62,354 bases of DNA from Geobacteraceae bacterium GWC2_55_20 (GTDB lineage Bacteria; Desulfobacterota; Desulfuromonadia; Geobacterales; Pseudopelobacteraceae), in assembly GCA_001802125.1 (NCBI GenBank), contig MGZK01000048.1, positions 1 to 62,354 on the forward strand, in the 5' to 3' direction. The translations under genes and the position numbers were made by a program. Shown here piece by piece: positions 111-53,379 of this stretch (position 1 is the stretch's first letter; every line of letters starts with the position of its first letter). The notes under the pieces were generated by a model. The model was not told the origin of the DNA. It did no database searches and was given only the letters and a program-made list of their open reading frames with translations.

Positions 111-3100
111 ATGAAGACAATAATCCGTATCTTTTTACGCTCAGCTATCCTCGCAGCGTTTCTGCTGATTAACACCATAAGCATGGCACAGGGAGCCGGT
201 TTCAGCACGGTCGCGCCACTTACCGATTACCGCTGGAGTAACCATACGGCAACACTCCTGCAGAATGGCAAGATTCTTGTTGCGGGAGGATTCGGCAGCA
301 ACGGAATACTTTCCTCTGCAGAGCTGTACGATCCCGCGACAAACAGCTGGGCACCGGCCGGCAACCTGTCAACAGCCCGCATGCAGCATACGGCAACGCT
401 CCTGCCCAACGGCAAAGTACTTGTGACTGGGGGAAGTGGCAGTATTGACACCATGCTTTCCTCTGCCGAGCTGTACGACCCTGCCACAAACAATTGGACA
501 CCGGCCGGCAGTCTGGCCACAGCCCGTTTTGACCATACCGCTACACTCCTGCCAAATGGCAAGGTACTGGTAGTGGCAGGCCGTTATGACAGTATCACGT
601 TTGAAGCTTTCACCTCCGCCGAATTGTACGATCCAACTGCCAATACCTGGTCTCCCGCAGGAAATATCTCTATTGGCAGATCACGTCACACTGCCACGCT
701 CCTGACCAATGGCAAGGTGTTTATCGCAGGAGGCAACACTACTGCTGCTACAGCAAATAATGCCGACCTTTACGACCCTGCGACCAACAACTGGACACCT
801 GTCAACGGCGGGGCATTAACCGCCCGCAGCGGGCATACGGCAACACTCCTTGCCAACGGCAAGGTACTGGTCGCAGGCGGGACAGCAGCGACAACTCCAG
901 CGCTGGAGGCCTATGACCCGGCAACAAACAGCTGGTCGTCAGCAGGCGTTTTCAATGTTGCCCGTGTTGATCACAGTGCCACCCTGCTTGCAAACGGAAA
1001 AGTTCTATTTACAGGAGGGGCCTCCGGAATTTCCGTTTTATCGTCGGCAGAACTGTACGACCCGGTCAGCAATGCCGTGACGTCAGTTGCAGGCGCCATG
1101 GCAACCGGCCGTTCCACTCACACAACCACGCTACTTGTCAGCGGCAAGGTGCTGATAGTCGGAGGTAATCCATCCGCAATAAATTCTGTGGAACAGTATG
1201 AATCACCTCTGTCCGGCAGTTGGCTGTCAGCCCCGCCGATGCTGAACGATCGCTATGGGCACACCGGGACTCTGCTGAATAATGGCAAGATCCTGATAGT
1301 CGGTGGCAACGGTTTCTCGGCATTCGACCTGAAGTCAGCCGAGATCTATGATCCTGCAAACAAAACCTGGGCCTCCGGCGGAACCACCAGCACTGCTCAC
1401 TCATATCACTCCGCCACACTGCTTTCCAACGGCATGGTGCTGATAGCCGGCGGATATGATGCCACCGGACCGATTGCATCGACGGAACTTTACGACCCGG
1501 CAAGCAACAGCTGGACACGTGTGCAGGACATGAATACGGCCAGGCATGGCCATACTGCAACGCTGTTACAGAATGGCAAGGTCCTGGTAACTGGCGGCTA
1601 CAACAATACCGGTTACCTCACAGCGTCTGAAATTTTTGACAGCCTGACCAACACCTGGTCAACAGTTGCACCGCTTGGGACTGCACGGAATTATCATACG
1701 GCCACCCTGCTGCCGGACGGCAAGGTGCTGGTTACGGGAGGATTCAACCTTGCCGGCAATCTTGCCTCGGTAGAAACCTACGATCCCGCTACCAACATCT
1801 GGGAACCCGGGTTGGATATGACATTTGCCCGAAACTCGCATACATCGACACTGCTTGCCAGCGGCAAGGTGCTTGTGGCCGGTGGAGACGAGATTTCCAA
1901 CACTTCAACCGAACTTTATGATCCGGTGCTGAAAAGCTGGAGCACTGCCGGCAATATGACGTTTGGACGCTCGAAACACTCGGCCGAACTGCTCCGCTCC
2001 GGCAAGGTAATGGTCATCGGCAATGTCGCCACAACAGAAATTTATGACCCGCTGGCCAATACCTGGGCCATTGCCGATGATCTGGCCATTTCCCGCTATC
2101 GCCACACGTCTGCAATACTCGCTGACGGCTCCGTTTTTGTGGCCGGTGGTGTCGTCTCCGGCGCAGTTTATGTTACCGCTTCAGCAGAGCTGTACTCTCC
2201 TGCGATAGAGGCGCCCAACCTGGGCACGGCCCGTTCCGGTCACACGTCAACAACGCTCCCGGACGGCAGGATACTGGTCACAGGCGAAGGATTTGGCGGA
2301 CCCGCACTCGCATCAGCCGAACTGTTCAATCCAGCAACAAGAGCATGGTCAGCTGCCGCCCCCATGGCCATGACCCGTTCGCACAACACCGCCACGCTAC
2401 TGCTAAACGGCAAGGTATTGGTGACTGGAGGCGATCAGGCTGGCGTTCCTCTCGACTCGGCGGAGCTGTACAACCCTGCAACGGATACATGGGCAGCTGC
2501 AGCCAAAATGAGCATAGCCCGTCAGCGGCACACGGCAACTCTGCTTGCAAACGGAAAGCTATTGGTGGCGGGTGGAGGAAGCAGTGCGGCCGAACTGTAT
2601 GATCCGGTGTTGAACACATGGCAGCCCGCTGGAATCCTGACCGACAACAGAAGCGACCATACCGCCACCCTGTTGCCCAACGGGAAGGTGCTGGTAGCGG
2701 GCGGCAGCGGCAGCATCAGCACCACGCCTTATTCCGCGGAACTTTATGACCCGCAAATCAACAGCTGGAGCCTGGCATCAAGCATGACCTACGACCGGTA
2801 TTTCCATACCGCCACGCTGCTTCCTAATGGCAAGGTCCTGGTTGCGGGGGGGCAAAGTACGGATCGTGCTTCGGCGGAATTGTATGATCCACTTCTTGAT
2901 ACCTGGACACTCGCCACAAGTATGAATGCTGCCCGGCAAACCCACGCCGCTGTATTGCTTCCGAGCGGCATGGTGCTTGTTTCGGGAGGGGAGTCAGTGG
3001 TTTCGCTCGATTCGATTGAAATTTATGATCCGGCTACCAATCTCTGGTCATTTGCCGGGAAGCTGGCCGGCTCACGCCACAGTCACAGTGCAAACCTGCT

Positions 3101-4853
3101 TCCCGATGGCCGGTTGTTGATTGCGGGGGGATTTTATGCGGTGTATCCGTCATTCTACAACATCGCTACCACTGAAATTGTGAACACTTGGCCGGACTTA
3201 CAGGAAAGTCGACGCCCGCTTGTCTCCAGCGCGGTTTATGATCCGGCGCTGCCTACGCAGCTGACTTTTACCGGGAGCCGCCTACGGGGTGATTCGGAGG
3301 CTTCTTCCGACTCCACGAACAATTCTTCCAGCGGCTATCCGCTCCTGCTGCTGCAGAGGCTCGACAATGAGCAACTTCATATCATAGCCTCCGACCCTGC
3401 ACGCAACTGGACAGACATCTCCTTTGTTTCACTGCCGGTGCTGCAACTCCCGGCTGGTCATTATCGCGCAAACCTGGTAACCAACGGCATTCCGAGCGTT
3501 AGCAGGATAGTTTTGATTCACGATACCGTGCCTCCGGCCATAGTCTCTTTCACGGCGCCTTCCAATTCGGCAAGCCTGACAGCCGCTCCACTCTCTGTCA
3601 CCGCTACCGACAACTCCGGTGTAACCGCCTATTGTCTATCGGAGAGCAGTGCGGCAACAGGCTGCGTCTGGTACGGTATATCTCCGGCAAACTTCACGTT
3701 TGCCAGCAATGGAGTCAAAACATTATATGCATTCGTTCGTGATGCGCACGAAAACGTATCTGTTCCCCAATCCAGGAATATCACCATCGACACTACGCTG
3801 CCGGCGATCAGCTCATTCACTGTACCGGGCGTATGGAACAGTTACCAGCTGCCGGTCAACACATTGGTTGCTTCAGACAACCTGGGCACGATTGCCGGTT
3901 ATTGCATATCCGAAACAAACTCGGCCGCTTCATGCGCCTGGAGTAGCGTCAAACCGGTTTCGTTCACGCTGACCCCTGATCCGGTTCCAATCCTTGCCCC
4001 GAAAAATCTGTATGCGTTCGTCAAGGATCCGACCGGCAACATCTCACTGTCGGCCACGGTCTCGACGGTGATCGATACGGTCAAGCCCGTGGTCAACAGC
4101 TTTACCATACCGCCCACATCAGCCAGTGCCACAATCGCCGTCATTGCCTTCAGGGCAACTGACAATCTGCTGCTTGCCGGTTACTGCATAACAGAGGTAA
4201 ACAATTCGGCAAATTGCCTCTGGAACATAAACCCGAATCAGGACTACACATTCCACACTTCAGGCACCAAGTTGTTACATGCCTGGGTCAAAGACACCGC
4301 TGGAAACATATCTTCACCGGTAATCGCAGTAATCAACATTACCTCCTCGACTTACCCCCTGACTTTGACCCTTGCCGGGAGCGGTGGCGGTTCTATCAAC
4401 GGTGACATGAACTGTGTAACGGGTTTCGCATGCTCGGTTGTCCAATTTGTAATCGGCGCCACGATCACGCTGATACCGACTCCTGATATCAACTCTGTCT
4501 TCGACGGGTGGTCCGGCAGCTGTAGCGGAACCGGAAACTGTACCCTGACAATGCTATCACCCAATGTGGCAACAGCTACCTTTAGCCTGGCGTCGTTCAT
4601 CCTGAATCAATCCAGCGGATTTTCATACATTGCACTGCAGGATGCATACAACAATGCGCTAAATGGCAATGTAATCCTGATTCAGGGGGGAACGATTCTG
4701 TCAGGGGATCTGATCATGGGCAATGCGATACTGGTAACGATCAAAGGCGGGTACAGTGCAGACTATTTGACACAAGGCAGCTATACGACATTACAGGGGA
4801 ATCTTACGATTGGGCTGGGGAATCTGGTAGTGGACCGGCTCATAATCAAGTAA
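111..4853 (+). CDS. Giant secreted Kelch-repeat protein with Ig-like, InlB-like and GGY C-terminal domains
   Basis: The 1580-residue protein begins with a signal peptide (about residues 1-28, ending near MAQGAG). Residues about 44-1006 hold 21 Kelch-type repeats of about 49 residues, each with a core like HTATLLPNGKVLVAGG followed by SAELYDP and W. Residues about 1030-1140 resemble the E-set domain that follows galactose-oxidase propellers. Three Ig-like repeats follow (about 1140-1413), each with a YC...C.W pair. An InlB-B-like domain (about 1416-1496, GWSGSCSGTGNCTLTM) and a terminal GGY domain (about 1498-1580) end the protein. The last two are shared with the proteins ending at 47516, 51428 and 53379. 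GGGAGG lies just upstream of the ATG. Role unknown; an extracellular binding or surface-structure protein is inferred. Confidence 0.9.
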   Translation: MKTIIRIFLRSAILAAFLLINTISMAQGAGFSTVAPLTDYRWSNHTATLLQNGKILVAGGFGSNGILSSAELYDPATNSWAPAGNLSTARMQHTATLLPNGKVLVTGGSGSIDTMLSSAELYDPATNNWTPAGSLATARFDHTATLLPNGKVLVVAGRYDSITFEAFTSAELYDPTANTWSPAGNISIGRSRHTATLLTNGKVFIAGGNTTAATANNADLYDPATNNWTPVNGGALTARSGHTATLLANGKVLVAGGTAATTPALEAYDPATNSWSSAGVFNVARVDHSATLLANGKVLFTGGASGISVLSSAELYDPVSNAVTSVAGAMATGRSTHTTTLLVSGKVLIVGGNPSAINSVEQYESPLSGSWLSAPPMLNDRYGHTGTLLNNGKILIVGGNGFSAFDLKSAEIYDPANKTWASGGTTSTAHSYHSATLLSNGMVLIAGGYDATGPIASTELYDPASNSWTRVQDMNTARHGHTATLLQNGKVLVTGGYNNTGYLTASEIFDSLTNTWSTVAPLGTARNYHTATLLPDGKVLVTGGFNLAGNLASVETYDPATNIWEPGLDMTFARNSHTSTLLASGKVLVAGGDEISNTSTELYDPVLKSWSTAGNMTFGRSKHSAELLRSGKVMVIGNVATTEIYDPLANTWAIADDLAISRYRHTSAILADGSVFVAGGVVSGAVYVTASAELYSPAIEAPNLGTARSGHTSTTLPDGRILVTGEGFGGPALASAELFNPATRAWSAAAPMAMTRSHNTATLLLNGKVLVTGGDQAGVPLDSAELYNPATDTWAAAAKMSIARQRHTATLLANGKLLVAGGGSSAAELYDPVLNTWQPAGILTDNRSDHTATLLPNGKVLVAGGSGSISTTPYSAELYDPQINSWSLASSMTYDRYFHTATLLPNGKVLVAGGQSTDRASAELYDPLLDTWTLATSMNAARQTHAAVLLPSGMVLVSGGESVVSLDSIEIYDPATNLWSFAGKLAGSRHSHSANLLPDGRLLIAGGFYAVYPSFYNIATTEIVNTWPDLQESRRPLVSSAVYDPALPTQLTFTGSRLRGDSEASSDSTNNSSSGYPLLLLQRLDNEQLHIIASDPARNWTDISFVSLPVLQLPAGHYRANLVTNGIPSVSRIVLIHDTVPPAIVSFTAPSNSASLTAAPLSVTATDNSGVTAYCLSESSAATGCVWYGISPANFTFASNGVKTLYAFVRDAHENVSVPQSRNITIDTTLPAISSFTVPGVWNSYQLPVNTLVASDNLGTIAGYCISETNSAASCAWSSVKPVSFTLTPDPVPILAPKNLYAFVKDPTGNISLSATVSTVIDTVKPVVNSFTIPPTSASATIAVIAFRATDNLLLAGYCITEVNNSANCLWNINPNQDYTFHTSGTKLLHAWVKDTAGNISSPVIAVINITSSTYPLTLTLAGSGGGSINGDMNCVTGFACSVVQFVIGATITLIPTPDINSVFDGWSGSCSGTGNCTLTMLSPNVATATFSLASFILNQSSGFSYIALQDAYNNALNGNVILIQGGTILSGDLIMGNAILVTIKGGYSADYLTQGSYTTLQGNLTIGLGNLVVDRLIIK

Positions 4854-4891: not shown

Positions 4892-6016
4892 TCAGACGAC
4901 CTCAATCCAATCACGCTTGCAGCAGCGGGAAGGCGTAACGCCTTCTGCGGTCAACAACATCGTTACCGCGTTGGCAACCTCGTCAGGCGTGATGGTCCGC
5001 AGGCACTCGGCATCACGCAGACAGGAAGGCGTGGTTCCGAATGTGGTACAGGGCGAGCAGGGCAATTTCCGGTTGATGACGATATGGCGCTCGCCCTGCG
5101 GCGCCCACTTCTTCGCCCTGCCCGGACCGAACAGCGACACGGTCGGCTTGCCCAGGCCGACAGCGATATGCAGCACCCCGGAATCACCGCTCACCAGCAG
5201 CGCGCTCCGATCAAGGATCGCAGCAGTAACCTCCAGACTTGTCTGGGCGACAAGGTTTAATCCCAACCCTTCGGCAACAATAGTTTCCCCCGCTTGACGG
5301 TCCTCCCGCCCTCCGACAACAACCACGCGCACACCAAAAACCGACAGCAGCTCCGCCACGCGCCGAAAACGATCAGCTCCCCAGCGACGCTCCGGAATGC
5401 TGGCACCGGGGAAAATAGTCACAAACGGCACTGTTTCGTAATCACCCAGCAGCTTCGAAGCGGTGGCGGCAACCTCTTCCGGAACGGACAGGTAACGTTC
5501 GACTGAACACCCGGCCTGAACTCCCAAAGGCTCCATCAAATTGCAAAAGCTGACCGCCTCGTAATCATCATGTGAATAACCGATCTGATGGGTAAACAGG
5601 CGGGAGCGTTCGTTGGTAGCAAAACCGATTAGTACCGGCGCACTGGTAATTCGGGCCACGACAGCCGAGAGCCGGTGCCACTGTTCGCTGTCGATTACCA
5701 CATCATACCGCCCACGCACTGCTTTCAACAGGTCCGGGGAACGATCGTACAAAAGAACCCGGTCCACCGCCGGGCAGAGCCGGAACACGGCGCAGTTGCG
5801 CTGTTCCGCAAGTATGGTGATCTTGGCGGAGGGAAATTTTTCTTTGAAGGCAAGTAGAGCCGGTACCAGCAGCACCGCGTCGCCGATACCGCCGGGTCGG
5901 ATGATCAGGATGGAGCGGATGTCGGCGGGAATGACAGAACTGGCGGGACGCGGCAGCAGGGAGACCGCTATTCGTCCCAGGAGGTTATCCACTGTTTTCA
6001 TAAGACTGACATTCAT
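4892..6016 (-). CDS. Glycosyltransferase family 9 (heptosyltransferase-like)
   Basis: This 374-residue protein matches the ADP-heptose:LPS heptosyltransferase (GT9) pattern. The N-terminal half has SILIIRPGGIGDAVLLVPAL. The C-terminal half has a nucleotide-sugar-binding region with FPGASIPERRWG, SGDSGVLHIAVGLGKPTVSLFGP and a Cys-containing tail (CSPCTTFG). It should act on the cytoplasmic face of the inner membrane, adding a sugar to LPS core or a related glycan. It is the last gene of the polysaccharide cluster, and its start overlaps the stop of the upstream flavoprotein gene by 4 nt, which suggests translational coupling. Base composition is GC-rich, unlike the centre of the cluster. Donor and acceptor cannot be read from sequence. 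Confidence 0.88.
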   Translation of the reverse strand: MNVSLMKTVDNLLGRIAVSLLPRPASSVIPADIRSILIIRPGGIGDAVLLVPALLAFKEKFPSAKITILAEQRNCAVFRLCPAVDRVLLYDRSPDLLKAVRGRYDVVIDSEQWHRLSAVVARITSAPVLIGFATNERSRLFTHQIGYSHDDYEAVSFCNLMEPLGVQAGCSVERYLSVPEEVAATASKLLGDYETVPFVTIFPGASIPERRWGADRFRRVAELLSVFGVRVVVVGGREDRQAGETIVAEGLGLNLVAQTSLEVTAAILDRSALLVSGDSGVLHIAVGLGKPTVSLFGPGRAKKWAPQGERHIVINRKLPCSPCTTFGTTPSCLRDAECLRTITPDEVANAVTMLLTAEGVTPSRCCKRDWIEVV

Positions 6017-7368
6017 CCGGCCAGACCGTTTAGCGTTGATTCCGGTTTTCCAGTCAGCAAGCGGTCAACCAGCTCGACCCCCTGCATGAAGGAATGATCC
6101 ATATTACCGACCTCATACTTCCAGGCTCCGAAACGCCCCCTGGAATAGACCGACCTGGATTCCAGGTAGGGCTGAATCTTTGCCAGCGCCCTGTCACGCC
6201 CCAACGTAGGCACAGGATATGAGTACGGAATGTCTATCAGATAACGGCTTGCGACTCGACCCTTCACTCCGTCCTCAATCATGCCGCTGTCAGCCAATCC
6301 TCGCAGTGTAGACTCGACAATCCCGGCACTCTCCACCGGTTTATGGCTCGAATAGGTAGTTTCGCACATCAGTGAAAAATAGCGATCTGTATCGCCGTCG
6401 GGCACATTGAAGCGGGAATAGTTGTGGAAATTGGTTACGCGATAGAAGGGAGAATTGCTTTCCGGAAAATACATCCAGCACTTGGTGTCGTCACGACTGC
6501 CCTCAAAACCGAGTCCCGCGATCAACCCGCCGTTATGCACCAGGTTTCCGGCGGCCGTTGCAACAGATTCCGGAATTGCATGGCAGAGTGAAACCAGCAG
6601 GTCCAGCGGGGAGGTATTGATCAGGACATCATACTGTTCTGACCTGCCATTGGAAAAGGTCACACTCTTACGCTCCAGATCAATTCCGGTCAGCTCGTGA
6701 CACAGGTGAATCCTGTCGTGCAGGGGGTTGGCGATGCCTTCGTAAATGGCGCCGGTTCCGCCAAATTTTGGAAACTTGAAAACATTGTTGGGTCCCCAGC
6801 CCAGGTCGTCGCGCCGCTCACGGACATTCCGTTCAACACGGGCCAGGTCAACCACGCTGACCCGTTCGGCGATCCAGTCCTTGCTCATCGTTTCCAGCGG
6901 CACGCCCCAGACCTTGCGGTTATAAGGTTCCATGAAATACCTGACGATGCCATGGCCGAAAACCGTGTCCATCCATTCCCGGAAATTTCGGCTGTCCGCC
7001 GGACTTCCCGAGATTGTGCGTAAGCCGTCCACACACTCCTGAAGCGCATCGTCAGGAAGGTACCTGACGTTATTCTGGAACGGGTACGGCACCCAGCGTT
7101 GCAGGATGCGAACCCAGCTTTCACGCTGATGCTCATAATACGAATCGCCCAGCGCCCCGGCCACCGCCCGGTCGAAATAGTCGTAGTGGGAGAACAACAC
7201 ATGGCCGCCCACGTCCCAGGTAAAACTGTTACCGTCAACAAATGAGGCTGAAAGGCCGCCCACATACGCGTTACGTTCGAACAGTTGCCAGTCGCCATGA
7301 CCAAGCCGGTTGAGATGATAGGCGGCCCCCAGTCCGCAGGGACCGGCGCCGATAATCAGAATTTTCAC
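6013..7368 (-). CDS. FAD-dependent oxidoreductase, UDP-galactopyranose-mutase/amine-oxidase-like
   Basis: The 451-residue protein opens with a Rossmann FAD-binding motif (ILIIGAGPCGLGAAYHLNRL) followed by ERNAYVGGLSAS, as in the UDP-galactopyranose mutase / protoporphyrinogen-oxidase-like superfamily. WVPYPFQNNVRYLP recalls the YPF region of UGM-like enzymes, and the C-terminal part has YPVPTLGRD and GRFGAWKYEVGNMDHS. Its place among glycosyltransferases suggests a sugar-nucleotide or lipid-linked-sugar conversion, but it is not a clear Glf orthologue, so the substrate is left open. It overlaps both neighbours by 4 nt within the cluster. Confidence 0.75.
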   Translation of the reverse strand: MKILIIGAGPCGLGAAYHLNRLGHGDWQLFERNAYVGGLSASFVDGNSFTWDVGGHVLFSHYDYFDRAVAGALGDSYYEHQRESWVRILQRWVPYPFQNNVRYLPDDALQECVDGLRTISGSPADSRNFREWMDTVFGHGIVRYFMEPYNRKVWGVPLETMSKDWIAERVSVVDLARVERNVRERRDDLGWGPNNVFKFPKFGGTGAIYEGIANPLHDRIHLCHELTGIDLERKSVTFSNGRSEQYDVLINTSPLDLLVSLCHAIPESVATAAGNLVHNGGLIAGLGFEGSRDDTKCWMYFPESNSPFYRVTNFHNYSRFNVPDGDTDRYFSLMCETTYSSHKPVESAGIVESTLRGLADSGMIEDGVKGRVASRYLIDIPYSYPVPTLGRDRALAKIQPYLESRSVYSRGRFGAWKYEVGNMDHSFMQGVELVDRLLTGKPESTLNGLAG

Positions 7369-8510
7369 GATTCAGACACCATTTTGAAAACTTCGTATAA
7401 TTTTTGCGCCGAAGACGACCATCTGAACTGTTTCGCTCTCTCAAGGCCAGCTGACCTCAAAACCTCTGCACGTTGAGGATGATCAAGAATTTCCTGCATG
7501 GCTGCGGCAATGCTTTCAACAGAAGTGGGATCAACCAGCAAGGCTGCGTCACCGGCGATTTCTGGCATGGCAGAACAGTTTGAGGTGATGACTGGAGTAC
7601 CGCATGCCATAGCCTCGATTATGGGGACTCCAAAACCTTCGTGCAGCGAGGGCAGGACAAAAGAGATGGCACCATTGTAGAGGAACGGAAGGTCATCGTC
7701 AGAAACATATTCAAGGTAACGCAACCTGGTCTCTAAAATTCCCAAATCTGCTGCAGCTTTTTTTATATCTTCAAGATAATCAGCATCCTTACAAGCGCCG
7801 GCAAGAACGAGTATAGCCTCAGTTTCAAGACGAGCGAATGCCTGTACTAGCCTTACAATATTTTTGTGTTTCAGAATACTGCCAACAAATAAAAAGTAAT
7901 TACCAGATTGCAGCACATAACGATCAAGTGTCGGTTGCGTGTTTTCAATAGCATGAAATCTAAACTCATCATAACCATTATAAATTACATGAATTTTATC
8001 CGGGTTAATGCCAAATGAAACAACAATGTCCTGCTTTGTGGACTCAGAAACTGCAACCACGGCAACAGAGTGTTCCAATATATGTGGCATTTTGTATTTA
8101 TAGAGCTTTGTTCTAAACCGACTAATTTCATTCCTGCAATCAGAAATAGAACTGTCAAAATGCTGGTAGTGAAGATCGTGAACCGTAATAATCTGATTCA
8201 CAGATGGAAACAACAAGCCATCCTGTATGGGGAAAAAAACAAGGTCAAACATTGCCTTGGAAAGATGGCGTCTGAAAAAGGTTTGGTCCCAAATGGCCCT
8301 GAGTATATATTCTCGTTTACCAAAGAACCTATTTGATATTGCAATAGAACAAGGTGATTTTGAATAAGGAATTCCCGGAATTGTTTGAGTACTGACAACT
8401 TTAGTATTTGCATCAATACGATACAATTCCTGGGACATGTGAAGGGCAAAACGCTCAATTCCGGTATGCATGTTGGAAGTTATGGAAGTAGCATTAATCA
8501 ATAACTTCAT
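7365..8510 (-). CDS. Glycosyltransferase family 4
   Basis: A GT-B fold glycosyltransferase with the GT4 (RfaG-type) C-terminal domain: FLFVGSILKHKNIVRLVQAF, a variable linker, then PSLHEGFGVPIIEAMACGTP with the E...E catalytic/donor-binding motif, and SAMPEIAGDAALLVDP. I start it at the ATG at 8510 (MKLLINATS, 381 aa). A TTG at 8543 would extend it by 11 residues into the preceding gene and looks less likely. The stop overlaps the flavoprotein start by 4 nt. It probably adds one sugar to a lipid-linked repeat unit. The codons are more AT-rich than in the genes downstream. Confidence 0.88.
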   Translation of the reverse strand: MKLLINATSITSNMHTGIERFALHMSQELYRIDANTKVVSTQTIPGIPYSKSPCSIAISNRFFGKREYILRAIWDQTFFRRHLSKAMFDLVFFPIQDGLLFPSVNQIITVHDLHYQHFDSSISDCRNEISRFRTKLYKYKMPHILEHSVAVVAVSESTKQDIVVSFGINPDKIHVIYNGYDEFRFHAIENTQPTLDRYVLQSGNYFLFVGSILKHKNIVRLVQAFARLETEAILVLAGACKDADYLEDIKKAAADLGILETRLRYLEYVSDDDLPFLYNGAISFVLPSLHEGFGVPIIEAMACGTPVITSNCSAMPEIAGDAALLVDPTSVESIAAAMQEILDHPQRAEVLRSAGLERAKQFRWSSSAQKLYEVFKMVSES

Positions 8511-8529
8511 ACAAATGCCAATACATAAT

Positions 8530-9372
8530 TCATACTGTCCCAATCCAAAGATACTTCAAAATACGTAACACTTTCCTCAGATAATAGTTGAGAGTAATCC
8601 GGTAATAATCCAGATCATCAGAAATATCATGGCAGATATTTGCGTATATCTCTTCTTGGTAAAATAATTCAATCTGCTCCATGCTTGCACCCGCATTAAA
8701 ATCCACCAGATATTTTTCAAGAAATCTGAATTCAAAAACTGAAAGCGCCCTCAACCAAAATTCATAATCCATTCGTATTTTGAAATTGAGATTGTAAAGT
8801 CCTACACGCTCGTAAACATCTCGCCTGACAAAACTTGCTTGATGTGAAATCATTGACTTTATTCGTAGAATGTCTGAATTCTTCAGTAGAACATCCGGTA
8901 CTTTTGACGCGTCATGTTTTGCATAACCAGTAACAACCGGCGCGTCACAAAATCTGCTCACCAACTGCAGGACATCATCATCAACAAACGTATCTCCCGA
9001 ATTTAGAAGCTGTAGATATTCTCCATTGGACAGAACAATCCCCTTGTTAAACGCATCGCTGATACCTCTGTCCGACTCGCTGATCCATAGATATATGAAA
9101 GCATCATATTTCTTTATAATTTCAAGCGTACCGTCCGTGGAACCGCCATCAATAACAATATACTCATAATCATCATAGTTTTGGCTGATAACACTCTTAA
9201 TGGTCTTGGCAATGTTGGCAGCATCATTTTTTACAATAGTTATGATACTGAACTTTGGTTTGAATGAACTTTTTTTAACTCCGCGCTGAAAACCGATTGG
9301 ATGCAACAGGTGACTATAATCATCAAATGTTGGTCCTTGGCAAAAATGTGGAGAACATCGGCAATTCAGCAT
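8530..9372 (-). CDS. Glycosyltransferase family 2
   Basis: A GT-A (family 2) enzyme of about 280 residues. [20 protein letters not shown] opens the fold, [14 protein letters not shown] follows, and the [15 protein letters not shown] region is typical of WcaA/RfbG-like transferases that add sugars to O-antigen or capsule units. The metal-binding DXD-like segment is probably NSGDTF. An ATG at 9372 is preferred; an in-frame TTG at 9384 would add four residues. It is predicted to be cytoplasmic or peripheral on the inner membrane and belongs to the minus-strand polysaccharide run. Confidence 0.87.
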
Positions 9373-9423
9373 TTTGATTTCCAATTATAGATAAGATCAG
9401 CGATGATCTCCAAACTAAGGCAA

Positions 9424-10524
9424 TTAAGATTCACCCACAAGTTTGATCACTTGTTTAATAGTATTCTTGTAAAAAGGTTCATATCCTAATTTATTTCGAA
9501 ATGATTGAGTGTATTCTCCGCTTTGCATGATAAAAGATATGTTACGCCCCAGATTCCCCCTGCTGTACACAGCACCCATTCCATTTTGAGTCACCAGCTT
9601 GTTCAGAAAGGGAATATCATTTATAATTAGCGGCTTATTGTGCTGGATATATTTGAAAAACTTACCCGACGACAGCCCCATGTTAAAACAGTTACAATCC
9701 GAACAATCATAAATTGCCATGCCGATGTCCGATTGCGAGACCATATAGTTCAGATCTGCCAGGCTCTTTTTTTTGATGTCAAAAACCATGTGGCCATGCC
9801 GTGCATACTTCTTAACAAGCTCATCATAGTATCCATCTCTGGACCAACCGCTGAATAAAAACGTGTACATTGGTAAGGTAGCAATTTCATCCAAAAGTTC
9901 ATTGGATAACGCCCATCGTTCTATTCCGCCTATATACAGGATCAATGCATCTGCATCTTTTCGGACCTCATCAAACCAAGAAAGTTTTTCAGCCATCGGT
10001 TCGATCACATCCAAATATGAATTGGGAACTATCGAAAAAGGTTTGTTTACGATGTCAGGAAAGTAGTCGCAGAGTATTTTATAACGGAACCTGTCTTGAA
10101 TTGCCAACAGATCAATATCGGATAATGCTTTTCTCAACAAAAGTCGATGAATTAGCCTAAAAAGATCCTTGCTTTCAAAGGCGTATGAGGGTATTTCCAA
10201 CGAATGATGCAGATGCTTTTTGCCTAGTTTTCTACCGCTAAGTAGCCTGGCAATATAAACTGACTCCAAATCTTTTGGGTCATAGGTGATGATCAGATCA
10301 TAGTGTTTTTCAATATGTGACAATCCCCAAGCTGTCGGCAACAGAAAAATTGTAGGATTGAGAGGATGAACCGTATCAATGAATTGATTGAAATCACTGC
10401 AATCTCCCGCTGTTGCGATATCATTGTCCCAACCCTGTTTTTTCCAGAGACAAAGTGCATTGTATACACTGGGAAAAGTATCGAGTCCCCTGTCGTCTGT
10501 GAGTATATGCAGGACACTAGGCAT
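9424..10524 (-). CDS. Glycosyltransferase-like protein (GT-B type)
   Basis: The 366-residue protein has no strong textbook motif but reads as a GT-B glycosyltransferase: an N-terminal half with DLIITYDPKDLESVYIARLL, a middle segment VPNSYLDVIEP...ALILYIGGIERWALS resembling the start of a GT4 C-terminal domain, then SQSDIGMAIYD and SSGKFFKYIQHNKPLIINDIPF where donor-binding residues usually lie. It sits between a GT2 gene and an FkbM methyltransferase gene on the same strand. Family assignment is by fold-level resemblance only. Confidence 0.65.
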   Translation of the reverse strand: MPSVLHILTDDRGLDTFPSVYNALCLWKKQGWDNDIATAGDCSDFNQFIDTVHPLNPTIFLLPTAWGLSHIEKHYDLIITYDPKDLESVYIARLLSGRKLGKKHLHHSLEIPSYAFESKDLFRLIHRLLLRKALSDIDLLAIQDRFRYKILCDYFPDIVNKPFSIVPNSYLDVIEPMAEKLSWFDEVRKDADALILYIGGIERWALSNELLDEIATLPMYTFLFSGWSRDGYYDELVKKYARHGHMVFDIKKKSLADLNYMVSQSDIGMAIYDCSDCNCFNMGLSSGKFFKYIQHNKPLIINDIPFLNKLVTQNGMGAVYSRGNLGRNISFIMQSGEYTQSFRNKLGYEPFYKNTIKQVIKLVGES

Positions 10525-10533
10525 GGGTACAGA

Positions 10534-11334: not shown

Positions 11335-11361
11335 TGGCGCACAAGCCGCTATAGCCGCAAT

Positions 11362-11726
11362 TCACCGATAAATCTCCAGAATAAAATGGCAGTAAATGTT
11401 TTCCCCCAGCTCAACTTTGTTCCTCAATGTGAGGAAATAGTTTTCTGCTTGAAATTTCCTGAATGCATCGCATGAGGGAGAATAATCTGTGATTTTATAT
11501 CCAGTGCATGCAAATCACACTCTATTTGATCAAGTTCACCGGAGGTAGGATTATAATACTTGAGCACATCCCGTACTCGCCACTGATACCAACGCTCTTT
11601 CGCATTACCAAATTCAAAGCTTTCCTTGCACACCCCACAAAACCATAGCGTTGGATCACTTGCAAAATATCCATGTTGTCACCATCGTTTACTGATCTTT
11701 ATGAATACATTTTCGATAATTTTCAT
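11362..11726 (-). pseudogene. Decayed small gene: in-frame TGA plus frameshift
   Basis: A start ATG at 11726 overlaps the stop of the upstream glycosyltransferase (ATGA coupling). The frame reads MKIIENVFIKISKRW, meets a TGA at about 11679-11681, then continues in the same frame with protein-like text (GYFASDPTLWFCGVCKESFE and KERWYQWRVRDVLKYYNP). Near 11505 sensible coding switches frame: frame 1 ends in a short nonsense tail at 11424, whereas the alternative frame gives GYKITDYSPSCDAFRKFQAE and runs to a TGA at 11362. One missing base would join LHAL to GYKIT. Two lesions in about 120 codons make a pseudogene the best reading. I do not recognise the family. Confidence 0.6.
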
Positions 11727-14817: not shown

Positions 14818-14852
14818 AAATCACCTATCAGCTAAAAAGCTCGCAGCGACGT

Positions 14853-16121: not shown

Positions 16122-16170
16122 CAGTTAATGGGGCTCTCCTTTGGAGCGAATGACTAGAAATGCCGAGCTA

Positions 16171-17634: not shown

Positions 17635-17852
17635 GATACGACATATGATGTTCTCGAAGCTGAAGTCCAAGAGCGTTTCAGAAAAGAAGTTTTTGCGGTT
17701 ATCATTTCAACTCCAGCAGGCCCATTAATTAAAAATTATGGTAATAGCTCTAACATAAGGCTATAAATCAAATCTTAAGTTGATAACTAATTTTTAGAAT
17801 GAATTCGGTGGAGTATGATATAAATATAACTTGCATAAATTCCATGCATCAA

Positions 17853-18755: not shown

Positions 18756-18775
18756 CGATAAACGCCGTCCGATTC

Positions 18776-46238: not shown

Positions 46239-47516
46239 ATGAGAATCCTGCTCTGTTGTCTTATTTCAATCGGGTTGACCTTTTTGCTGCCTCCCTGTCA
46301 TGGCAGTTGCGCCGTGATTGCCGGAACATCCCATTTCCCCGCCAGCGTGGGCAGTTCCTGGAATTTTAATACCCAAACCCTGACACCAACCGCAACCGGA
46401 CAAACCATGATGTGGGGAACCGAAGCCGTCCAGGTAATGCCGAGCGGAAGCTTCCATTCCGTGATCACCCTGCCGAACGGCAACTCGGTAACATCCGACA
46501 ACAACTATGTCAATCTGGGGCAGGCCATATATGTTACCGATACACAGATAACTATCATCACGGTAGACACGGCACCACTTCCGTACATTGGTACTTATTG
46601 GACAGAAACCACAACGGTCAACACATATACTCCCAGTCAGATATCCTTTCCTTCCAGCGTAATAGCCGGAACTCATGAGACTTCAACCAGCATCGGAAAC
46701 ACTCATCTAACCGGAATAACCCACTATACAGGTTTACCTGATATACCAATGCCGCCTTCTGACACTGTCACCACGCAGGTTGTCGACGTGACCGTCGGCC
46801 CGGCGGAAAGCGTGACTGTCCCGGCCGGAACATTCCAGGCGATCAAGATCACAAAAACCTTCACCATTACCGAAGACGGAACCACCTATCCGCCTTATAC
46901 GGCCGACGAATGGTATGCAGCCGGAGTCGGCCTGGTCAAGATGAGTTCGCCCAACATGAACCGGGAGTTGACATCCTACAATGTCATTCCGGCCACGACT
47001 CAACTGCTCACCGTGACCTTCCAGGGAACCGGCGACGGTAGCGTGCACAGCTCGCCACCAGGCATAAGCTGCAGCAGCGGAACAACCTGCCCATCTACGC
47101 CCTTCAACAGTGGCGAGATTGTAACCCTGACAGCCACCGCCGATGTCAACTCGACCTTTACCGGCTGGAGCGGGGAAGGATGCTCCGGCACCGCTACCTG
47201 TGTCGTGACGATGGATGCCGCAAAAAATGTCAGCGCCGGTTTCGACCTGTTGCCGGCAAGAGTCTTCATCCTGGGAAGTCCGACCCCTTATCAACTGCTG
47301 CAGCTGGCCTATGACGCCGCGGTTGACAACGACACCCTGCAACCGCTGGCGGAAGTTTTCCTCGAAGATCCGCTCACTTTCAGACACGCTGTCAACGTTT
47401 TCCTGGCAGGCGGTTATGATACAGGTTTCCTGAACCAGTCCGGCTACACCACGATCCAGGGGCAGGTTATTTTCCAGCTCGGAAGCGTGGTGGTTGACAG
47501 GCTGGCCATCAGATAA
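46239..47516 (+). CDS. Secreted protein with InlB-like and GGY C-terminal domains
   Basis: The 425-residue protein starts with a signal peptide (LLCCLISIGLTFLLPPCHGS). Residues about 27-250 form one domain I do not recognise; it ends PAGTFQAIKITKTFTITEDG...WYAAGVGLVK, a pattern recalling DUF3108-like beta-rich proteins. Residues about 256-337 are an InlB-B-like domain (GISCSSGTTCPSTPF, FTGWSGEGCSGTATCVVTMD) and about 343-425 the GGY domain (TPYQLLQLAYDAAV, VFLAGGYDTGFL, TTIQGQ, VVVDRLAIR). A GGGGGTGCAGC element lies before the ATG, as at 47679. Surface location is inferred. Confidence 0.85.
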   Translation: MRILLCCLISIGLTFLLPPCHGSCAVIAGTSHFPASVGSSWNFNTQTLTPTATGQTMMWGTEAVQVMPSGSFHSVITLPNGNSVTSDNNYVNLGQAIYVTDTQITIITVDTAPLPYIGTYWTETTTVNTYTPSQISFPSSVIAGTHETSTSIGNTHLTGITHYTGLPDIPMPPSDTVTTQVVDVTVGPAESVTVPAGTFQAIKITKTFTITEDGTTYPPYTADEWYAAGVGLVKMSSPNMNRELTSYNVIPATTQLLTVTFQGTGDGSVHSSPPGISCSSGTTCPSTPFNSGEIVTLTATADVNSTFTGWSGEGCSGTATCVVTMDAAKNVSAGFDLLPARVFILGSPTPYQLLQLAYDAAVDNDTLQPLAEVFLEDPLTFRHAVNVFLAGGYDTGFLNQSGYTTIQGQVIFQLGSVVVDRLAIR

Positions 47517-47678: not shown

Positions 47679-50600
47679 ATGAAGAGTTCAATAATTGCGG
47701 TTAAGGTTCTACTGGCCGGCATGGTCCTGGTGGTGTGCATGGCAGGCATGTCTTGGGGCGCCACACTGTCCGGCACCATTACCAACGCCACCAGCAAAAG
47801 CGGACGATTGTATGTGATGCTGATCGACCAGAACAGCGGGCAGTCATCCGGATATGGAACAAGCGTCGCCAATGTGGCAGCCAACGCCGTAAACGTCCCT
47901 TATACAATCAAAGGGGTCCGTCAGGGAACTTTCAGCCAGGTAAGAGCCTTTCTTGACACACGCAACACAGGATTTCCGTATGCCGCGTCACCGATCGGTT
48001 CCACCAGTCCCGCCACCCCGATAAACGTCAGCACAAGCGACATTCCGGGACTGAATTTCAGCGTTCAGGACCAGGCTGCCCAAACCGCGGCCACCCCCAT
48101 CAACCTTAATGTAGCCCCAATGAACGGCGGCGCCCTGATACTCTGGGACATTCCCAAAAACAGCTCCGACATCGAAATAGCCGACACATACAATGTCTAC
48201 TGGAGCACAAGCGCCAACCCGGGCCCGGGACAGACCGTGGGGGGCGGAAGCCAGACCGGCATTTCCTCCAGGGATGACGGGCACGTCTTCATTCCGCTCA
48301 CGAACGGAGTCAGCTACTACTTTGCAGTGCAGGCTGTTCTGGGCGTTTCAACTGCAACCGCCACAACAGCATCACCAACGATGATCGGTTCTCCAGCCGG
48401 CGGCAACACCGTAACGGTTCACATCAATTTCACGTCTACGCCTCCGGTCGCTCCACTGCTGGCGGTACTGATCGGCAACCAGGGACCAGTTGGCGGCGCC
48501 CTGATCACATCACCGGTTCAGAATCAGACCATCAATATCGCCGGGGTACCTGACGGCAGTTACCAACTGTATGTAATATTCGATAAGAACAATAATAAAA
48601 GGTTCGATACCGGTGATGTAAATTATACCGATAGCGAATGGGTTACCCCGAGAGTTACGGTTCAGGGTGCGCCGGTGGACATGGCTCCACTGAGCATGTC
48701 TGTAAGTCGCAATCTTGAGGCATCCGTGACGACGGAGGTCCAGACCAACAGCCCGACACCTTATCAACTGGATTTCGAATTCAACGGCCAAGTCAAACGC
48801 CCGGCCCATATCGTCATCAACAGCGGCCAGCAGATGTCCGAGACCAGTATCGGGCAAAACTCGTGGGGCAGTTTCTCTCTGAATGCGCAACTGGAAGCCG
48901 CTCCACAGGTCGGCGACAGCTACAACCTGACCATCACCTACACCGACAACACATCGGAATCGTTAATCCTGACGGTTGCCAACGTAATGAACAAATCACC
49001 CAACCAGACCTATCCGATCGGCAATACCGCCCCAAGCAGCAACAACCCCCGTTTCGCCTGGAATACACTTTCCGGCGCTCCCAATTCGCCCTACATGTAC
49101 CATCTGGCGCTTATGGAGGCCAATTCCTCCGGAGACTATCTCTGGGAAAAATACCTGACGCCTGATCAGGTATCGGTTCAATATGACGGACCGACCCTCT
49201 CGACCGGAAGGACGTACAACTGGGGCATCAATATGTACGACAAATACGGCAACCGTTCGACAATCTGGCAACAGTTCACGCCGCAAGCCAGCGGGCTCAG
49301 CATCACGTCCCTGGGAACCATGACGCTGCCATGCGGATCCGGAACACCTATCACCATCAACGGCAGCGGCTTCAGCAGCACACCAGGCAACAACGCGGTT
49401 TATTTCAACAACACTTTCGTCGCGGTAACACCGACCGCCGCCAGCAGTTCCCAGCTCACAGTGAATCTGCCAACATGCTCCAATGCACCCTCCACCGGGC
49501 CGATCATCGTTGCCACCAATGGCCAGACGGTAGCCTCAGCCGTCGAATTCACCCCGACCTTCACCTATAACTATTATGTAACCGATTTCACGCCCACCGT
49601 GATGTCGGGGGTACAGGTGGAGGTCGCCGACAAACCGTCCGTTCCGGCCGTGCCAAGTAACGCCAGCGGTTTATTCAGCCTGCCCGGCATCCCCACCGGT
49701 GTTCCCTACCGACTGAAACTAAGCAAGATCGGTTACATGCCGGTATACACCGCCTTCTTTATAAATTATTCCAATGTTCCGATTCCGATCGATTCAACTT
49801 ATAACTTTGCCCTCGCCCAACAGTCCCATTTCACGACCTGGGGCATCCAGGCGGGCAAGGGAGTTCTCAGGGCCAGGACACGAAACGGCAGCATTGCCAG
49901 CAGCACCAATTACCTGGGAGGGGTGACGGTTTCCGCCTACAGTAACAATCACGATTCCTACAATTATTACACTGTCGCCTACACCGACCCGGCCAACACG
50001 GCAGCACTTGTGAGCGGCCCCGGCGCCAGCACTTATACTGACGGCAAATATTATGTGCTGAATGTGGAGGAGGGCGATGTTATTACCGTCAGCGGTTCAA
50101 AGACCGGTTACAACTTCCCCAACGTTCGCATCTTCGTCGGTGAAGCCGACGCCATGGGACAGACCAGTATCTACGGTATTCCGGCGGTCAGCATCTCCGG
50201 TTTCACACCGTCAAGTGCCATCCCCGGCGGTACAGTCACAATCACCGGCTCCAATTTCAGCACCAATCCCACATCCAACCAGGTCTGTTTCGGCACGCAG
50301 TGCACCACCCCATACAGCGCCACGTCAACCCAGCTGCTGGTAACGGTGCCTTGTGGCGCGCAAAATGGCCCGATCAGCGTTTCAACAGGCAGCCAAGCTG
50401 CATTCAGCAGCACCAGCTTCACTGTCCCTGCGCCCACCATCACCAGCATTTTCCCGACCCAGGGGCCGCTTAACGCCAACGTGGTGATATATGGGACCAA
50501 TTTCAGCAATTGCCAGAGTAACCAGGTCAGCTTCAACTACCAGAATTCATTTAATGTGAGTTGGTTCTCTTCCAGCCAGATTTCGGCCTATGTTCCCTTC

Positions 50601-51428
50601 GGGGCTACAACCGGGCTGGTCAGAGTCACCACTGAGGGCGGCACGGCCACCGGTCCCACCTACACAGTGTTGCCAAACCCGGCCATCACCTCCACGTCAC
50701 CTGAATCTGGACCTGCCGGCACTGTAGTGACCGTAACCGGCAGCTTCTACGAGATGAACCCCGCCATGTACCAGATCTTGGTGGACGGAATTACGGCAAC
50801 GGTCAACAGCGTAACGTCCAGTGCCCTGACATTCACAATTCCGGGCGGGACCGGAAGCCTGCCACAGTATTACATCGAGTATTTTGGTGTACAATATTGG
50901 AATGCATCCTTTACCGTAACTCCCAAGCTGACCGTATCCATAACCGGAGTGGGCAACGTCAATGTAACCAGCCTTCCCACCGGCACCGTCTGCGCCGGAA
51001 CCTGGTGCAGGATTTTTGACTTCAACACATCGGTGACATTGACCGCCTCGCCAAGTATCGGATCTGACTACGGCGTCTGGGGCGGCAACTGCGCCGGCGC
51101 GGCCTCGACCCCCTGCACGCTCACCATGGATGCAAACAAGTCAGTCACGGCAACCTTCACTATTCAGGATAATGCCCGTCTGAATAACGACCTCACGCCG
51201 TACGGAACCGTGCTGAGCGCCTACAACGCAGCCACGGTCAGCGGTACGGTCATAAAACTGCGCGACAAGGCATTCCCGGAAGCCCTGGATGCCGACAATG
51301 GAACCACGGTAACCCTGTCGGGCGGCTATGCCGCCGATTTCGGCACTACCCACACCGGCGTCACCTCGATTACAAGCCTGATCATAAGCCTTGGCAGCTT
51401 GACAATTGACAACCTGACAATCAAATAA
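47679..51428 (+). CDS. Large secreted TIG/IPT multidomain protein with InlB-like and GGY C-terminal domains
   Basis: The 1249-residue protein has a signal peptide (VKVLLAGMVLVVCMAGMSWG). Domains in order: a beta-sandwich resembling surface DUFs (about 25-135), a fibronectin-III-like domain (about 137-240, YNVYWSTS, GVSYYFAVQAV), a long middle region, TIG/IPT 1 (about 540-627, PITINGSGFSS), a carboxypeptidase-regulatory-like domain (about 637-703, GLFSLPGIPTGVPYRLKL), three more TIG domains (about 834-1082, TITGSNFS, VIYGTNFS, VTVTGSFYE), an InlB-like domain (about 1084-1162) and the GGY domain (about 1165-1249, VTLSGGYAADF, LTIDNLTIK). GGGGGTACAGC precedes the ATG. Adhesin-like function is inferred. 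Confidence 0.88.
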   Translation: MKSSIIAVKVLLAGMVLVVCMAGMSWGATLSGTITNATSKSGRLYVMLIDQNSGQSSGYGTSVANVAANAVNVPYTIKGVRQGTFSQVRAFLDTRNTGFPYAASPIGSTSPATPINVSTSDIPGLNFSVQDQAAQTAATPINLNVAPMNGGALILWDIPKNSSDIEIADTYNVYWSTSANPGPGQTVGGGSQTGISSRDDGHVFIPLTNGVSYYFAVQAVLGVSTATATTASPTMIGSPAGGNTVTVHINFTSTPPVAPLLAVLIGNQGPVGGALITSPVQNQTINIAGVPDGSYQLYVIFDKNNNKRFDTGDVNYTDSEWVTPRVTVQGAPVDMAPLSMSVSRNLEASVTTEVQTNSPTPYQLDFEFNGQVKRPAHIVINSGQQMSETSIGQNSWGSFSLNAQLEAAPQVGDSYNLTITYTDNTSESLILTVANVMNKSPNQTYPIGNTAPSSNNPRFAWNTLSGAPNSPYMYHLALMEANSSGDYLWEKYLTPDQVSVQYDGPTLSTGRTYNWGINMYDKYGNRSTIWQQFTPQASGLSITSLGTMTLPCGSGTPITINGSGFSSTPGNNAVYFNNTFVAVTPTAASSSQLTVNLPTCSNAPSTGPIIVATNGQTVASAVEFTPTFTYNYYVTDFTPTVMSGVQVEVADKPSVPAVPSNASGLFSLPGIPTGVPYRLKLSKIGYMPVYTAFFINYSNVPIPIDSTYNFALAQQSHFTTWGIQAGKGVLRARTRNGSIASSTNYLGGVTVSAYSNNHDSYNYYTVAYTDPANTAALVSGPGASTYTDGKYYVLNVEEGDVITVSGSKTGYNFPNVRIFVGEADAMGQTSIYGIPAVSISGFTPSSAIPGGTVTITGSNFSTNPTSNQVCFGTQCTTPYSATSTQLLVTVPCGAQNGPISVSTGSQAAFSSTSFTVPAPTITSIFPTQGPLNANVVIYGTNFSNCQSNQVSFNYQNSFNVSWFSSSQISAYVPFGATTGLVRVTTEGGTATGPTYTVLPNPAITSTSPESGPAGTVVTVTGSFYEMNPAMYQILVDGITATVNSVTSSALTFTIPGGTGSLPQYYIEYFGVQYWNASFTVTPKLTVSITGVGNVNVTSLPTGTVCAGTWCRIFDFNTSVTLTASPSIGSDYGVWGGNCAGAASTPCTLTMDANKSVTATFTIQDNARLNNDLTPYGTVLSAYNAATVSGTVIKLRDKAFPEALDADNGTTVTLSGGYAADFGTTHTGVTSITSLIISLGSLTIDNLTIK

Positions 51429-51500: not shown

Positions 51501-51657
51501 TAAGGCGTTCACAAAAGAATAGATTAAGTTTCAAGATTGACGCGCCCGGAAAACACTGTTAAACTTTTTCCCGTATGTAACGTCGTAAATTCAAACCTTT
51601 CCAATCACAATCAGCAAAGAAACTCACAACATTATGATTCCAACCCGGGGGTATTTT

Positions 51658-53379
51658 ATGAAAACGCGATTTTCGCTGGCAGTTCTGTTTTCACTGGCCG
51701 TACTGTACCCCCACTCTTCACAAGCATCAACCATTCAGCTTCCCAAAACCGGAATGACAACCTGCTACGATGCCGACGGGACCGTAATAGCCTGCAGCGG
51801 CACCGAACAGGATGGAGAGCTGCAACTGGGAATAGCCTGGCCGGCCCAGCGTTTCAGCGATCACGGCGATGGAACCGTCACCGACAACCTGACCGGCCTG
51901 ACCTGGACCAGGGATGCCCGTACACCGGGACCGTCCCAATGCAATCCGGGTGGCAACAAAACCTGGTCGTCAGCGCTCAGCCACGTAGCCTGCATGAACT
52001 CCTATGTCTACCTTGGTTCCGCCTCCTGGCGCATGCCGAATATCAACGAGATCAGGAGCCTGGTCGATGTGACCCGGAGTTTTCCTTCACTTGCTTCGGG
52101 ACACCCGTTTACTAACGTCAATGTTATTGATACAGCCTCCAACCACTTTTGGTCGTCAACCACGATGACCGGATTTCCAGGATTAGCATTCGATATCTAC
52201 ATGGGAAACGGCATACTGGGTAGTACAAACAAGAATGATTCTCTTCCGGTATGGCCTGTCAGAGACGGCACGGCCGGAGCGATACAGCTTCCACGGACTG
52301 GACAGACCACCTGTTATGATCCGGCATCGTTGCTTGAAACCAGCTGCGTGGGAACCGGACAGGATGGAGAGCTGCTAAAAGGAGCAAACTGGCAGAATCC
52401 ACGTTTTACCAACAACGGTACAACCATGACCGACAATCTTACCGGGTTGATGTGGCCAGCGGCGGATGTAATCAGCAATAACCCGCCACCAGAGTGCAAT
52501 ATCATGGATATGAAACTGACCTGGGATGACACTTTCATCAAAATGGCCTGTTTAAATACCCAAAATTACCTGGGGCATAATGACTGGCGCCTGCCCAATT
52601 TCAACGAGATGTCCAGTCTGTTCAATCGTGAGGAGCCTAGTCCCGCAAGCTGGCTGACCACAAGCCAGGGTTTTCAGTCGTTTCTTGCAGATAGTTACTG
52701 GACATCGACACCCAACATAGTCGATCCACTTCTTTTGACCGCCAGAGCAATAAATATGGCGGATGGGACCGACTTTACAGCCTCCACCAAGGGACTATAT
52801 TTCGTCCCGGTAAGGGCAGGGAACTATGTCCCATCCAGCCTGTTGACACTGGCATTCAGCGGAACCGGCAGCGGTGACGTCAACAGCAACCCGGCCGGCA
52901 TCAACTGCAGCAGCAGCGATCTTTCCTGTCAACCGGCCATCTTCCCCACCGGATCGACGGTAATATTGACCGCCACCCCCAGCCTGTCCGGTTTTGGAGG
53001 CTGGACAGGTTGTGACAGCGTCAACGGTACAGCATGCACGGTAACTATGAATGCGCCCAGAACTGTCACCGCCACTTTTACAACCCTGCCGCCACGCGTT
53101 ATTAATCCGCGCATATCTACATCCCAGGGGTACCAGACGCTGCAATCCGCTTTTAATGCGGCGCTCAGCGCAGATACACTGAAGGCGTTGACCACAACAT
53201 CACAAACCGAGTTTATCGAGAATCTCACGGTCAACGGCGGCATTCAGAGCCCTTACAATCTAACCCTTCTGGGTGGATATGAATCAACTTTCAACACCAT
53301 CACGGGAGCAACGACTATACAGGGACAGCTAACCATCCAAACCGGCTCTCTGACAGTTGACAAAATAGCAATTAGATAA
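51658..53379 (+). CDS. Secreted protein with two DUF1566 domains, InlB-like and GGY C-terminal domains
   Basis: From the ATG at 51658 (MKTRFSLAVLFSLAV, GGGGGTATTTT upstream) the protein is about 573 residues with a signal peptide. Two DUF1566 (Lcl C-terminal) domains occupy about 27-206 and 207-384; each has QLPKTGMTTCYDADG or QLPRTGQTTCYDPAS, DNLTGLTWTRDART or DNLTGLMWPAADV, and a SWRMPNINEIRSLVD-like block. An InlB-like domain (about 395-476, GFGGWTGCDSVNGTACTVTM) and the GGY domain (about 482-573, LTLLGGYESTFNTITGATTI, LTVDKIAIR) follow. An earlier ATG at 51634 would only add eight residues. Confidence 0.87.
   Translation: MKTRFSLAVLFSLAVLYPHSSQASTIQLPKTGMTTCYDADGTVIACSGTEQDGELQLGIAWPAQRFSDHGDGTVTDNLTGLTWTRDARTPGPSQCNPGGNKTWSSALSHVACMNSYVYLGSASWRMPNINEIRSLVDVTRSFPSLASGHPFTNVNVIDTASNHFWSSTTMTGFPGLAFDIYMGNGILGSTNKNDSLPVWPVRDGTAGAIQLPRTGQTTCYDPASLLETSCVGTGQDGELLKGANWQNPRFTNNGTTMTDNLTGLMWPAADVISNNPPPECNIMDMKLTWDDTFIKMACLNTQNYLGHNDWRLPNFNEMSSLFNREEPSPASWLTTSQGFQSFLADSYWTSTPNIVDPLLLTARAINMADGTDFTASTKGLYFVPVRAGNYVPSSLLTLAFSGTGSGDVNSNPAGINCSSSDLSCQPAIFPTGSTVILTATPSLSGFGGWTGCDSVNGTACTVTMNAPRTVTATFTTLPPRVINPRISTSQGYQTLQSAFNAALSADTLKALTTTSQTEFIENLTVNGGIQSPYNLTLLGGYESTFNTITGATTIQGQLTIQTGSLTVDKIAIR

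Follow-up and report, generated by a model that had tools for sequence, protein, structure and literature searches.

C-terminal domains which attach or sort secreted proteins are known as a kind, and several described systems lie close to the one considered here. PEP-CTERM, GlyGly-CTERM and MYXO-CTERM proteins share a many-copy homology region at the C-terminus of otherwise unrelated proteins. Choice-of-anchor D proteins carry an NCBI name which we take to refer to the use of this domain with alternative anchors. The T9SS C-terminal domain (CTD) of Bacteroidota is described as an Ig-like beta-sandwich that is read by a dedicated machine (PMC4804311). Natural solenoids have capped or distorted ends which prevent end-to-end polymerisation (PMC7034853). 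In the literature searched there was no description of a tail such as the one reported below and no beta-helix stub in an attachment or sorting role, and related searches gave only known tail systems.

The window analysed here, which is the whole stretch of 62,354 nucleotides of contig MGZK01000048.1 from Geobacteraceae bacterium GWC2_55_20, encodes four secreted proteins that end in the same domain. The relevant features are as follows.

111..4853, + strand: gene 1 (P0001), Kelch-repeat secreted protein of 1580 aa with the tail at its end (ORF and Pfam)
4443..4589, + strand: InlB B-repeat (Flg_new_2) preceding tail 1 (Pfam, residues 1445-1493, E=9.7e-06 for the protein)
4605..4850, + strand: tail domain copy 1, stop codon 4851-4853 (four-row profile E=4.2e-36, 27-row profile E=2.4e-25; a training-set member)
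46239..47516, + strand: gene 2 (P0002), DUF3108-like secreted protein of 425 aa with the tail at its end (ORF and Pfam)
47076..47246, + strand: InlB B-repeat (Flg_new_2) preceding tail 2 (Pfam, residues 280-336)
47262..47513, + strand: tail domain copy 2, stop codon 47514-47516 (27-row profile E=2.0e-26)
47679..51428, + strand: gene 3 (P0003), TIG-repeat secreted protein of 1249 aa with the tail at its end, whose body was the query for tail exchange (ORF and Pfam)
51168..51425, + strand: tail domain copy 3, stop codon 51426-51428 (27-row profile E=2.4e-23)
51634..53379, + strand: gene 4 (P0004), Lcl_C secreted protein of 581 aa with the tail at its end, its start likely being an internal M, residue 9 (ORF and Pfam)
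52924..53082, + strand: InlB B-repeat (Flg_new_2) preceding tail 4 (Pfam, residues 431-483)
53107..53376, + strand: tail domain copy 4, stop codon 53377-53379 (27-row profile E=7.0e-25)

All four reading frames were found with the ends given in the original prediction (4853, 47516, 51428 and 53379), and their last 80-90 residues align as one common C-terminal domain with 11 invariant columns. The bodies had been named as Kelch, unknown, TIG and DUF1566; the Kelch (P0001) and TIG (P0003) assignments stood, while Pfam describes the unknown body as DUF3108-like (P0002) and the last as Lcl_C (P0004). Comparison of P0001 with P0004 gave E=4e-18 over 182 residues, a span which includes the preceding InlB-type repeat. 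This repeat (Flg_new_2, InlB B-repeat) lies immediately N-terminal of the tail in three of the four window proteins by Pfam, and a similar stretch in P0003 was recognised by eye only. By a simple motif test, an InlB-type repeat precedes the tail in 23/35 own-genome copies, 47/88 copies from the rest of the order and 1/19 copies from outside it. No Pfam or NCBIfam family at E<=1 covers the tail region of the four window proteins, in agreement with the claim of a new domain. A polysaccharide cluster at 4892-18812 on the minus strand (glycosyltransferases, methyltransferases and a Wzx-type flippase) lies tail to tail with gene 1. In a second genome (L257, G101:C18:66500-79500) three tailed genes are ordered like window genes 2-4, and the cluster is thus kept there.

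The likeness of the four window proteins is not a matter of chance, since a profile built from these four rows finds 33 further places in the same genome, giving 37 at E<=0.01; this count is complete for the four-row profile, and the 27-row profile scored at least 38 there. Using the 27-row profile at E<=0.001, the tail was found in 62 of the 141 genomes of the order, with between 1 and at least 38 copies in each. Copy number is both high and patchy within the genus itself, where 11 of 39 genomes are positive, with up to at least 38 copies. Five tail-positive genomes outside the order came from a class sample of 244 genomes, and a phylum sample of 395 genomes gave 29 that match at E<=1e-6, 24 of these being related no more closely than by phylum. 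In 84,980 species, a narrow pattern scan gave five named relatives, which are two Deltaproteobacteria MAGs, a Geobacteraceae MAG, a Pelobacter sp. MAG and Trichlorobacter thiogenes; from these, Geobacterales is the probable order. Plasmids gave no match to the tail, the three pattern stretches found in viral contigs were unrelated to it, and a PHROGs search gave a single match at E=0.026. The raw count of GGTGGNTAY in the genome, 176 against 151 and 159 in backwards controls, showed no excess. Gene calls for these analyses were made by script as greedy longest ORFs, and were wrong at least once (L151).

Within the order, the predicted C-terminal position was found to be near-strict. Full-length copies are terminal in 35/37 cases in the own genome and in 88/95 cases in the rest of the order, the latter being a non-random sample biased to high-scoring places, drawn mostly from these and, for 18 low-copy genomes, from every listed place. 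The terminal counts exclude seven partial matches insofar as these were listed apart (three in the order, two outside it and none in the own genome). Together with 19 of the 34 full-length copies from outside the order, this gave 142 terminal copies, of which 125 have no residue beyond the domain and 17 have 1-3. The other seven order copies comprise five internal ones, one near-terminal copy with 8 residues beyond (G138) and one cut by a contig end. Four of the five internal copies (L226_0, L256_78, L091_17 and L091_32) add about one extra coil, after which the chain stops at a coil end, and the fifth (G006) has a second copy at the very end of the same protein. Because these extra-coil copies also stop at a coil end, and G006 has a terminal second copy, the rule within the order would seem to be that the chain stops at the end of a coil, and this rule fades outside the order. 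Mid-protein matches as frequent as terminal ones had been named as a refuting outcome, and this came about in part outside the order, where 19/34 copies are terminal and those of G158 and G229 lie near the N-terminus.

In the two own-genome exceptions, L025 and L029, the domain directly follows the signal peptide and another region then follows, which in L029 is an ice-binding domain C-terminal of the tail-type domain. In L025 about 245 residues without a Pfam or NCBIfam match come after the domain. The near-N-terminal copies of G158 and G229 (L146-L148, L153, L155) occur in MopE/cytochrome-like proteins with MopE-like repeats and, by eye, CxxCH motifs. Further copies outside the order have extensions, short or long, after the domain: around 200 residues follow it in L201, a DUF4214-like region (by eye) follows it in L203, and L215 carries two tandem copies near the protein end. 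A conserved basic last residue had also been predicted. The last residue of the 142 complete terminal copies is K in 48, R in 34, Q in 31, E in 9 and another residue in 20, so that only 82/142 end in K or R; a strict K/R end signal was rejected on this count, and a terminal K/R need not be a signal at all, because full helices have the same residues at their coil end, LTI[RK].

By sequence profile, the domain of about 85 residues resembles an N-terminal cap and the first coils of a pectin-lyase-like beta-helix, ending at a coil boundary and with no recognisable C-terminal cap. This part of the prediction gained support from several comparisons. In L109 and L156 a weak profile match starts exactly where a NosD-type match starts, and in L149 the profile match falls where a sub-threshold DUF1565 match lies. 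A 63-row profile run against PDB sequences returned 16 entries at E<=10, among them ten pectinesterases, aligned near their N-termini, and two phage tail fibre or spike proteins; none of the matches is significant individually (pectinesterases E 0.085-0.48), and the top rank, at 0.061, goes to an unrelated enzyme. Comparison by hhalign gave 98.4% probability against six helix starts, which were chosen by the same profile, so this value is not independent. AF2 models built from 11 and 9 rows were both of low confidence (pLDDT 69.7 and 63.9), and fold searches with them (Foldseek, VIA-align) gave no PDB match. The term beta-helix stub is therefore used here on the strength of sequence and not of structure. 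As regards length and ends, the tail is not a long many-coil helix with both ends capped, being of about 85 residues and ending with zero residues beyond the domain in 125/142 copies.

Exchange of the tail on a homologous body was analysed with the N-terminal 557 residues of gene 3, which matched 30 places in 24 of the 141 genomes. These gave 26 rows, as three matches fell in an ORF already represented and G123 was left out, and one row was cut by a contig end. In the 25 homologues with a readable end, the body is followed by this tail in 13, by a dockerin-like tail ending in W in 8 and by a VVGNW tail in 4, the label of one row (L296_3), which the profile missed, having been assigned by eye. 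On the body tree the distribution of this tail needs four changes, gains or losses (three of them forced by starred branches; 3-5 over the bootstrap), and two sister rows at 100/100 differ, with VVGNW in G024 and this tail in G068. The same body with alternative C-terminal tails, which is the architecture of choice-of-anchor proteins, was thus found in one body family, that of P0003, from which the three-way exchange is known. The dockerin-like tail is of about 70 residues, ends in W and is chain-terminal in 8/8 (L289, L290, L292, L294, L298, L299, L300, L305); its dockerin kinship is by motif only, the best PDB dockerin giving E=0.18. The VVGNW type consists of GDWNGDG..IGVY..G.WYLD repeats (L288, L293, L297, L304). 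A purely genome-wide choice of tail was rejected, as G005 (8 copies) and G015 (7) carry the tail elsewhere while their P0003 homologue ends otherwise.

The domain company of the tail points the same way. Choice-of-anchor D (NF012200) occurs in 12 of 55 tailed proteins and is their most frequent NCBIfam match among the best 25 of 43 families, and families named after PEP-CTERM, T9SS or LPXTG proteins are also matched. In L098, choice-of-anchor D directly precedes the InlB repeat and the tail. The exchange with other terminal tails and this company say that the tail occupies what would be a slot for exchangeable attachment modules.

Taken on sequence evidence, the secreted-looking body varies freely and the last 85 or so residues form a conserved module, usually placed after an InlB-type linker, with the chain stopping at an apparent coil end. 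We suggest, with a probability of about 0.5, that the tail is a parallel beta-helix in truncated form, which serves for attachment, by docking or anchoring, as an exchangeable module at the C-terminus. Tailed proteins would be exported by Sec and then transferred across the outer membrane, the tail would fold into a short helix that is capped N-terminally and open at its C-terminal end, and by this open end, or by the side of the helix, the protein would dock to a partner at the surface or in the matrix. A candidate socket is the fibre-type protein whose gene directly follows many of the tailed ones. Since natural solenoids need caps against end-to-end association (PMC7034853), the end of an uncapped helix which stops at a coil boundary could serve for docking. 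Standing against a role of the chain end are the N-terminal copies of L025, L029 and G158/G229, in which the chain end cannot matter by virtue of this position, and the 15/34 full copies from outside the order that are non-terminal.

A different reading is that the tail is primarily an outer-membrane export signal, similar to the T9SS CTD, which is read by a putative translocon, with attachment being secondary. The signal-like N-terminus, found by a crude test in 52/55 tailed proteins, together with a strict C-terminal module on varied cargo and the high, patchy copy number, would be expected of such a signal. However, no co-occurring translocon was found among the three machinery families analysed. 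Exosortase (PF09721) was present in 41/62 tail-positive and 45/79 tail-negative genomes (p=0.30 in a Fisher test, which ignores shared ancestry), so that exosortase dependence was rejected. GspD was over the cut-off in 129/141 genomes, and thus nearly everywhere, yet not in G138, which has 33 copies and is rated 100% complete, or in G137 with 18 copies; these two may possibly have a divergent secretin. SprA (TIGR04189) was matched in 0/141 genomes, with the control of 14 genomes also giving 0. On the exosortase and GspD counts, the tail gained no support as one that goes together with a known gene for processing or secretion, and of the original prediction of a sorting, anchoring or assembly signal it is the anchor-like role which stood, by virtue of tail exchange on one body and choice-of-anchor D in 12/55. 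Since other tails occur on the same bodies and N-terminal copies exist, which also speaks against an export signal, we consider this reading rather unlikely.

The domain could also be a generic ligand-binding or stabilising one, for example carbohydrate-binding, which comes last by happenstance and plays no part in placement. Pectinesterases and tail spikes bind sugars, and these are the beta-helix relatives listed from the PDB; polysaccharide genes adjoin gene 1, and the N-terminal copies, as well as the internal ones outside the order, are in keeping with such a domain. Near-zero residues past the domain in 142 terminal copies, and its replacement on one body by tails that are themselves strictly terminal, are nevertheless unexpected for an ordinary binding domain, and leave this explanation quite improbable. 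A cleaved sortase-type sorting signal of the PEP-CTERM, GlyGly-CTERM or MYXO-CTERM kind, to which the strict end on dozens of proteins in one genome and the exosortase-family matches there might point, can hardly be entertained, as neither PEP/VPE nor LPxTG occurs within the last 60 residues of any of the 142 terminal copies, only 3/142 have a 19-residue stretch of mean hydropathy >=1.6 in the last 90, and exosortase is absent from 9 of the 27 genomes with at least 8 copies (two of the nine being under 75% complete).

As regards a partner for the tail as an exchangeable attachment module, no gene neighbour was universal among 23 loci (L088-L110) and the window. Closer inspection of a subset of loci showed that in several genera a secreted collagen- or fibre-type gene lies downstream of a tailed gene. 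Members of this fibre family have GNVGIGTxxPxxxLEVxGGVRLN and, at the C-terminus, C...RGTxW...VEVC.K...W, and collagen repeats are present in some and absent from others (L192:7231-7983 in the own genome, L098, L099, L105, L150, L151 and L178-L197), and three short members gave no Pfam or NCBIfam match. A profile of the fibre C-terminus, built from fibres adjoining tailed genes and applied to genomes that share ancestry, matched 34/141 genomes at E<=1e-4, namely 29/62 tail-positive and, with weak matches, 5/79 tail-negative ones; at E<=1e-10 these figures were 19/62 and 0/79. Of 28 fibre frames, 17 have a same-strand tailed gene within 2 kb upstream, and in loci fetched by fibre position such a gene was present in 11/20 and lacking in 9/20. 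The bodies of the fibre-adjacent tailed proteins are unrelated to one another (pro-kumamolisin, RHS, TIG, choice-of-anchor D and others). Against this, 15 of the 27 genomes with at least 8 copies have no fibre match at E<=1e-4, including G101 with at least 38, and the fibre therefore cannot be the general receptor as modelled. The fibre-type protein is thus the best candidate for a partner of the tail, not a proven one. A bolder version of the attachment role, which we hold to be doubtful, is that the uncapped beta-helix stub would stack coil-on-coil where a secreted fibre, or a partner in the matrix, has an open end of beta structure, as an attachment code of a new, Desulfobacterota type; if true, dozens of cargo proteins would share one socket.

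Whichever partner is involved, the tail provides an uncatalogued label by which many proteins of the surface or matrix, otherwise annotated as hypothetical, can be picked out; these span proteases, Kelch and NHL propellers, RHS repeats and adhesin-like domains. It also offers an example, open to direct test, of how truncating a protein fold could make a sticky end. Bacteria of this group exchange electrons and matter across the outer surface, and docking, if true, would represent a new way of assembling this surface.

In comparison with known systems, the tail shares with PEP-CTERM, GlyGly-CTERM and MYXO-CTERM regions its many copies on otherwise unrelated proteins, but unlike these it has no signature motif or transmembrane segment and does not track exosortase. 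The T9SS CTD is likewise conserved, C-terminal and about as long, and it too is carried by diverse Sec-exported proteins; it is a beta-sandwich, whereas the tail sequence points to a beta-helix, with AF2 models of low confidence. With choice-of-anchor D proteins the tail has the domain itself in common in 12/55 tailed proteins, and the tail would be an uncatalogued anchor type. Dockerin-type tails are comparable in that a dockerin-like, strictly terminal tail takes the place of this tail on homologous bodies, with no sequence similarity between the two. Stacking of the stub on a shared socket would, like cohesin-dockerin pairing, be many-to-one docking, but made by the end of a beta-helix. Finally, the tail has in common with pectin-lyase-like right-handed parallel beta-helices (NosD, DUF1565, pectinesterase) the Y.TLQ.A N-cap motif, the first coils, the GGY/GGW turn and the coil end LTI[RK]; whereas those helices continue onward, the tail appears to consist of the first coils alone, the chain ending at a coil boundary.
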